A stretch of 39,135 bases of DNA, from the IMG/VR virus record IMGVR_UViG_3300032286_000279, positions 1-39,135 of that record. The stretch is one strand, 5' to 3'. Positions within the stretch are counted from its first letter, which is position 1. Every line of letters begins with the position of its first letter. The stretch is from a virus. The notes under the pieces were generated by a model. That model did not search any database. It was given only the letters and a program-made list of their open reading frames with translations, and was not told the DNA's origin. A program made the position numbers and the translations under genes. Shown here in pieces: positions 16,635 to 17,903 of the stretch.

Positions 16635-17084
16635 ATGTCAGTAACATTAAAAAATTTAGAATCGGCCTTAGCTGGCGAATCTATGGCACATATCAAATAT
16701 CGATACTTTGCTAAGATTGCTCGTGAAGAGGGATTCGAAGATATAGCAAAACACTTTGAACACACGGCAGACCAAGAGATTATTCATGCTTGGGGTCACC
16801 TCGAATTGTTGATTGGTAAACCATCAACTAAAGAGTGTTTAGAAAAAGCAATTGAAGGTGAAACTTATGAATTCACCACAATGTATCCTGAATTTAGAAG
16901 TCAAGCTTTTAGTGAAGGACTTGCTAACGCTAGTAAGGAATTTACCGAACAGATTGAAGAATCTAAAGAACATGCGGAACAATTTAAACAAGTATTAGTT
17001 AAAGCCGAGAAACGATTTGCAGCTTTGGCTAAAATTGAAGAACGACATGCAAATGCTTACAAACAACAACTGGAGAATCTATAA
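16635..17084 (+). CDS. Rubrerythrin-like diiron protein without rubredoxin domain
   Basis: The 149-residue protein aligns with the diiron domain of rubrerythrin: AGES (Glu15), ADQEIIH (Glu48, His51), GETYE (Glu76, Glu79) with TMYPEF, and KEHAEQF with His113. By comparison with the Desulfovibrio protein, the ligand expected at His minus 3 is Ser110, with Glu109 next to it, so one iron ligand may have shifted or been lost. The family reduces hydrogen peroxide using electrons from a rubredoxin centre. Here that centre is in a separate overlapping gene (TAATG at 17082-17086). AAAGGA is the ribosome site. Confidence 0.85.
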   Translation: MSVTLKNLESALAGESMAHIKYRYFAKIAREEGFEDIAKHFEHTADQEIIHAWGHLELLIGKPSTKECLEKAIEGETYEFTTMYPEFRSQAFSEGLANASKEFTEQIEESKEHAEQFKQVLVKAEKRFAALAKIEERHANAYKQQLENL

Positions 17085-17230
17085 TGGAAAAACTGTCAGA
17101 ACATATTTGTGTAGTATGTGGCCATGTTCACGATGAAGAAGTAGAAGGTGTTTGGTCATATTTACCAGAGGATTTTACTTGTCCTGAGTGTGGTTGTGGT
17201 AAAGAAGATTATGAATTGATTGTAAAATAA
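17084..17230 (+). CDS. Rubredoxin
   Basis: The small 48-residue ORF has the two knuckles of rubredoxin: CVVCG (Cys9, Cys12) and CPECG (Cys33, Cys36), followed by GKEDYEL, as in the C-terminal domain of rubrerythrins. These four cysteines hold one iron and shuttle an electron. Its ATG shares its A with the rubrerythrin stop codon, so the two are translationally coupled. Together they reproduce a complete rubrerythrin as two chains. Central tryptophan and Pro-Glu-Asp-Phe before the second knuckle also fit the fold. Confidence 0.88.
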   Translation: MEKLSEHICVVCGHVHDEEVEGVWSYLPEDFTCPECGCGKEDYELIVK

Positions 17231-17243
17231 CTAAAGGTAAAAA

Positions 17244-17903
17244 ATGAAAAAGATTATATCATGTTTAATTGCATTATGTTTTTTAGGAACAGTATTTGCT
17301 AGTGAAGATTCTGGTTCTGGAAGTTCAGGAAGTAATACAAATACTGTTAATGGCACTAACACCAATACTAATAATGTAACCGGTACAAATACCAATACAA
17401 ATAATAATACTAATACGAATAATATTGAAAATTCTAATAAGAATACTAATAGTAATTCGAATCGTAACAATAATACTGCTAATGCTACTGGCGGTAGTGT
17501 AACTGGTAGTGGTAACTCAACGAATCGTAACACTAATAGAGCAACTGCAACTGGTGGTACAGCTAACGGTGGTTCCGGTGGTAGTTCTAATGTGAATGTA
17601 AACAATTCAAGTACGAACAATACACCTAATATTGCTTCATCTGCAATTGCACCTAATATCTTCCATTCGGGTGGTGTTGATTCATGTATGGGTTCATCAT
17701 CAGCTGCTGTGCAAGGTTTGAGTTTGGGTGTTGCTTTAGGTTCAACATGGACAGATAATCATTGTGTGGCATTAAGAGCTTCTGTTCGTTTGAATGAGTT
17801 GGGTGCTAAAAAGACTGCTATGGCACGACTATGTGCTATTCCAGAAATTGCAGATGCATTTAAATTATCTGGTGAATTCGATTGTGGTCCTGAGAAGAAA
17901 TAA
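17244..17903 (+). CDS. Secreted Asn/Thr-rich low-complexity protein
   Basis: The 219-residue product begins with a clear signal peptide (MKK, hydrophobic core, likely cleavage after VFA at 17-19). Residues 20-125 are low complexity, made of NTNT, GTNTNT and similar units, with almost no hydrophobic residues. The C-terminal 80 residues look folded (SCMGSSSAAVQGLSLG, then STWTDNHC and LCAIPEIADAF) and contain four cysteines. The family is not recognised. It would be exported to the periplasm or the cell surface, perhaps for lysis, superinfection exclusion or as an envelope-associated protein (all inference). It abuts the dCMP deaminase gene. Confidence 0.7.
   Translation: MKKIISCLIALCFLGTVFASEDSGSGSSGSNTNTVNGTNTNTNNVTGTNTNTNNNTNTNNIENSNKNTNSNSNRNNNTANATGGSVTGSGNSTNRNTNRATATGGTANGGSGGSSNVNVNNSSTNNTPNIASSAIAPNIFHSGGVDSCMGSSSAAVQGLSLGVALGSTWTDNHCVALRASVRLNELGAKKTAMARLCAIPEIADAFKLSGEFDCGPEKK

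Follow-up and report, generated by a model that had tools for sequence, protein, structure and literature searches.

A widespread phage-borne gene pair encoding a variant rubrerythrin-family diiron protein and a short rubredoxin

Does the presence of a diiron protein gene and a rubredoxin gene side by side in a T4-like phage reflect a rubrerythrin that was split in the phage, and what would such a pair do in an infected cell? These questions arise from a first-pass annotation of a viral DNA stretch of 39,135 nucleotides (IMG/VR record IMGVR_UViG_3300032286_000279; hereafter, the window), which described two ORFs overlapping at a TAATG sequence. Both ORFs are indeed present, and they share a single base (Table 1). 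In the profile searches that the annotation had proposed, the product of the first gene (rbr) scores 63.2 bits against PF02915 Rubrerythrin (curated cut-off, 22.8 bits), and the 48-residue product of the second (rd), which has a four-cysteine site made up of two CxxC motifs, scores 28.6 bits against PF00301 Rubredoxin (curated cut-off, 23 bits). The latter reaches only 15.4 bits against the rubrerythrin tail domain PF21349 RUBY_RBDX, under the cut-off of 26.5 bits. A search of PHROGs gave no match for either the diiron protein or the rubredoxin.

Table 1. Features of the rbr-rd locus in the window.
Feature	Position	Strand	Basis
Rubrerythrin-family diiron protein (rbr), 149 aa	16635..17084	+	PF02915, 63.2 bits; AlphaFold2; Foldseek/VIA matches
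Short rubredoxin (rd), 48 aa, C9xxC12 - 20 residues - C33xxC36	17084..17230	+	PF00301, 28.6 bits
TAATG stop/start overlap of rbr and rd	17082..17086	+	Sequence; translational coupling inferred
Shine-Dalgarno-like GGAG ahead of the rubredoxin start, within the rbr coding sequence	17072..17075	+	SD-like tetramer statistics
Hypervariable segment of the diiron protein between late helix C and early helix D (residues 86-105)	16890..16949	+	Entropy, dN/dS
Residues 126-149, which extend helix D at the C terminus; F128, L131, E135 and H138 invariant	17010..17081	+	Alignment

The neighbours of the pair in the window are T4-like and encode a RegA-like translational repressor, an Hsp20, a metallophosphoesterase, a dCMP deaminase and a DNA polymerase that is ~51% identical to marine cyanophage polymerases. 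Being host-like metabolic genes inside a phage genome, rbr and rd can be classed as phage auxiliary metabolic genes, and the view that a T4-like phage carries a diiron protein and a stand-alone rubredoxin as coupled genes is supported. The gene directly after the rubredoxin gene (17244-17903) encodes a product that begins like a signal peptide and has a long stretch rich in Asn, Thr and Gly; this product matches phrog_20531, whose function is unassigned in PHROGs.

We examined the conservation of the pair in 157 viral loci (L002-L158) obtained by scanning viral contigs with either protein and taking the best 80 loci of each scan; part of these loci overlap one another on the same contig. The diiron gene is present in all 157 and the rubredoxin gene in 155, and the contigs of the two loci that lack it (L029 and L057) both end less than 50 bases past the rbr stop codon. 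The two genes overlap by 1 nt in 113 loci and by 4 nt in 33 (together 146 of 155), and are separated by a 1-nt gap in one locus and by longer gaps in eight. An SD-like tetramer precedes rd in 76 of 78 distinct viral upstream sequences, as compared with 13% of control windows inside rbr, and the four rubredoxin cysteines are 100% conserved in 98 distinct rows. Loss of the rubredoxin ORF or of its cysteines in close relatives, which the first-pass annotation had named as the outcome that would speak against its reading, is therefore not what is found. Comparison with seven relatives yielded dN/dS values of about 0.02-0.12 for rbr and 0.08-0.47 for rd (Nei-Gojobori; some dS values saturated). Given its recurrence in 155 of 157 viral loci, its four invariant cysteines and its conserved overlap, the gene pair is real, under selection and far beyond chance.

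The gene neighbourhoods of the viral loci differ: 96 have the Hsp20/RegA/dCMP deaminase/polymerase surroundings, 15 have gp32, one has both and 45 have neither. Five of the viral loci (L138, L046, L139, L142 and L149) have a gene for an IscU-like iron-sulfur scaffold close to the pair, and the L138 protein scores 179 bits against PF01592 NifU_N. Two gapped loci were read in detail. In both L003 (4450-4593) and L021 (4450-4850), a small ORF that starts in the rbr TAATG overlap lies between rbr and rd, and the end of the inserted ORF in L003 again overlaps the rubredoxin start. Sequence distances of rbr and rd among the phages are uncorrelated (Mantel r = -0.06), so no tight co-evolution of the two proteins is seen; the lack of correlation suggests recombination at the locus.

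AlphaFold2 predictions made with two alignments (mean pLDDT of 94) give the diiron protein a four-helix ferritin-like fold with helices at residues 3-31, 35-60, 65-93 and 97-148. Model residues 1-126 superpose on 4di0 and 8fxd at 1.5 A, and the Foldseek/VIA matches include rubrerythrins of P. furiosus, Sulfolobus and B. pseudomallei. The predicted iron ligands are E15, E48, H51, E76, E79 and H113, the same as the canonical set in a joint alignment, in which H51 is Gln in one sequence. The first-pass annotation had placed a serine, Ser110, three residues before His113, where the last diiron glutamate would be expected, with Glu109 adjacent. This assignment is correct: the column holds Glu in 27 of 27 canonical rubrerythrins and Ser in 55 of 55 other family members, both phage and bacterial. 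The canonical diiron signature of two ExxH motifs plus helix A and helix C glutamates is consequently incomplete, with Ser110 in the second ExxH. Q106, E109 and S110 are invariant across 86 bacterial and 106 viral rows, and since Ser is just as invariant in the bacteria, decay in the phage is ruled out as its origin. As judged from the joint alignment, Ser110 is a family-wide trait that replaces the canonical second bridging glutamate. Because Ser110 stands in place of Glu in every family member, we file the diiron protein as a variant within the superfamily and not as a canonical rubrerythrin.

The consequences of such a replacement have been studied in sulerythrin, in which E126 is the second bridging carboxylate (PMC12851003). 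The E126A variant retains a two-iron site bridged by water or hydroxide, in which a cis (hydro)peroxo ligand is stabilised (PMC12851003). S110 would be the equivalent of E126, a correspondence that comes from alignment to canonical proteins and not from a solved structure of this family. Without the second bridging glutamate, the bridging position is probably filled by water, hydroxide or peroxide.

The anatomy of the locus is richer than first described, in that the diiron protein also has a hypervariable segment and, in a C-terminal extension, a second ExxH that is invariant. In the phages, the mean entropy is 2.20 bits for residues 86-105 but 0.35 and 0.87 for the two flanks, while the corresponding bacterial values are 1.09 against 0.58 and 0.76. 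The phage dN/dS is ~0.58 in this segment versus 0.03 and 0.16 in the flanks, with dS near saturation. Outside the segment, the phage rubrerythrins are highly conserved; within it they are mosaic, as versions of the segment are common to otherwise divergent phage diiron proteins. Ascertainment is ruled out as the cause, since the hypervariability is equally pronounced when only loci retrieved with the rubredoxin are considered.

The stretch past helix D repeats the helix D motif 25 residues on, with E135xxH138 as its ExxH. Every bacterial and viral row has E135 and H138, and the extension is missing from the 27 canonical rubrerythrins of the joint alignment. Both AlphaFold2 runs, which are monomer models, predict a single continuous helix from residue 97 to residue 148, with lower confidence in the extension (81-86). 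A straight helix would put the two motifs ~37 A apart on the same face, by arithmetic with 1.5 A and 100 degrees per residue. We considered whether E135 might belong in the Ser110 column through misalignment; the two AlphaFold2 runs and a gap-free alignment keep H113 in its canonical place and reject this for the single chain, leaving room for the dimer case.

The nearest cellular relatives, which are ~60-69% identical, belong mostly to Burkholderiales and otherwise to other beta- and gammaproteobacteria. Among the best 80 bacterial loci fetched, rbr and rd are separate genes in 79, usually about 20-120 bp apart, and the remaining locus is at a contig edge. The full-length family occurs in 6 of 249 sampled genomes of the phylum, these six including the Polynucleobacter genome used as the sampling centre, and a rubredoxin gene adjoins it in all six; no adjoining rubredoxin gene was detected for the sulerythrin-like proteins that were sampled with them. 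Downstream of rd and on the same strand, 70 of the 81 bacterial loci with enough sequence have a homologue of a NorW-like flavoprotein. The Polynucleobacter reductase, the one examined, scores 322 bits against the NADH:flavorubredoxin reductase NorW, below the equivalog cut-off of 392, and is therefore a NorW relative and not a certified NorW; it has the rubredoxin-binding domain PF18113 Rbx_binding (79.6 bits). The Polynucleobacter locus also has, upstream, a LysR regulator most similar to OxyR, and a LysR homologue is divergent upstream in 17 bacterial loci, a count that LysR paralogues may inflate. Neither a reductase nor a LysR regulator was seen in the stretch around any phage locus, and no relatives of the pair were found on plasmid DNA. 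The proteobacterial operon (Polynucleobacter, L165; Aromatoleum, L162) thus resembles the phage locus in its gene order, its separate genes and its Q106, E109, S110 and E135xxH138 pattern. It differs in the gap where the phage genes overlap, in its downstream reductase and in the rubredoxin itself: 29 residues lie between the CxxC pairs in 78 bacterial rubredoxins, versus 20 in 134 viral loci and 17 in 21, so that the phage loop is 9 or 12 residues shorter. The partner of the shortened rubredoxin could have changed.

These relatives bear directly on the claim of a rubrerythrin split in the phage. Bacteria commonly have fused rubrerythrins, and a fused ancestor could in principle have been broken into two genes in the phage. 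We regard this as highly improbable, because the nearest cellular homologues already have two genes, the small protein matches PF00301 and not the rubrerythrin tail domain, and the comparison of fused and split forms that had been called for uncovered no fused form among the 157 viral loci (best 80 per scan). Since rbr and rd are already separate in the nearest bacterial relatives, where a reductase gene usually follows them, the phage did not invent the two-gene arrangement. Cellular and phage sequences stand apart in the tree (100/100), a separation that says nothing on the direction of transfer. The account that we consider likely is that the pair is part of a bacterial operon for peroxide detoxification, carried by the phage, and that its two products reduce H2O2 with the help of a host reductase. 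Electrons would pass from host NAD(P)H to the host rubredoxin reductase, the product of the third gene of the bacterial operon, which the phage leaves out, and from there to the co-translated phage rubredoxin. The rubredoxin would then re-reduce the phage diiron protein, which would bind iron and, as a peroxidase, reduce H2O2 to water, and the phage would benefit during infection. Which genes were kept is most simply explained if the phage contributes two of the three components and relies on the host for an enzyme already present there. The proposal of a peroxide-reducing pair in the first-pass annotation is thus plausible from the gene pair, homology and operon context, with catalysis and electron flow as its inferred part. 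The peroxide-defence reading draws on the rubredoxin reductase and OxyR-like regulator of the bacterial context, and ferriperoxin, a rubredoxin-less relative, is a peroxidase that works with another reductase (PMC3317640). The conserved canonical ligands and the two irons bound by sulerythrin E126A (PMC12851003) also favour it. Against it count the absence of one canonical bridging glutamate at S110, the uncorrelated rbr and rd distances among phages, the shortened rubredoxin loop and the lack of a reductase in the phage loci as far as their sequence extends.

The missing glutamate raises the question of whether the main role of the pair is something other than peroxide scavenging, with O2 or peroxide reacting at an open diiron site in, for example, an oxidase function or iron handling, and with the rubredoxin donating electrons. 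Q106 and E109 are invariant even though S110 removes the bridging glutamate, changes at sulerythrin E126 alter O2/peroxo chemistry (PMC12851003), and the IscU-like gene near the pair in five viral loci would suit such a role. We nonetheless think it unlikely, given that the reductase and regulator of the bacterial operon fit peroxide defence, that the remaining canonical ligands are all kept and that engineered variants of sulerythrin react slowly with O2 (PMC12851003). A different proposal concerns the site and not the overall role, and is compatible with peroxide detoxification: E135xxH138, from the same chain folded back or from a dimer partner, might complete the diiron site, the S110 helix no longer serving it. 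The invariance of E135 and H138, the repetition of the helix D motif and the lack of a canonical ExxH in its first copy all fit this proposal. It is nevertheless doubtful, as the predicted helix is continuous, although monomer predictions cannot show a dimer, and as solved homologues align to model residues 1-126 at ~1.5 A, placing H113 at its canonical position. Somewhat broader, and put forward tentatively, is the possibility that the family is a natural diiron class without one bridging carboxylate, in which the second ExxH on the helix extension completes a dimer site, forms a further metal site or serves to dock the free rubredoxin, and of which the coupled phage pair has a hypervariable segment hinting at a changing partner.

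Among known systems, sulerythrin and ferriperoxin (PMC12851003, PMC3317640) have, like the phage protein, a four-helix diiron core without a fused rubredoxin, and they match the phage model with a VIA Z of ~14 and an rmsd of 1.5-1.9 A over 125-128 residues; they differ in keeping the second ExxH glutamate (E126) and in having no C-terminal extension. Classical rubrerythrins (D. vulgaris, P. furiosus) share the diiron core and a rubredoxin-type electron donor, but have the rubredoxin domain in the same chain, which the phage protein does not, and Glu at the S110 position. Pelagibacter phage Mosig EXVC030M (L001, MT647606.1) is likewise a T4-like phage with a rubrerythrin. Its protein is of the canonical type, groups with the sulerythrin-like proteins in the tree and has no C-terminal extension, and no rubredoxin gene was detected in the region fetched around it. 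Mentions of viral rubrerythrins are scattered, as in one silage virome genome (PMC10146946), and a search of open-access literature, which omits most subscription journals, yielded no paper describing an rbr-rd pair in a phage.

The gene pair is thus widespread in phages, and its counterpart in bacterial peroxide defence is clear. For enzymologists, it provides a natural case of the loss of the second bridging glutamate, a change that until now has been engineered in sulerythrin. Should the proposed mechanism hold, T4-like phages would contribute the first two members of a three-protein chain and so shield the cells they infect from oxidative stress.
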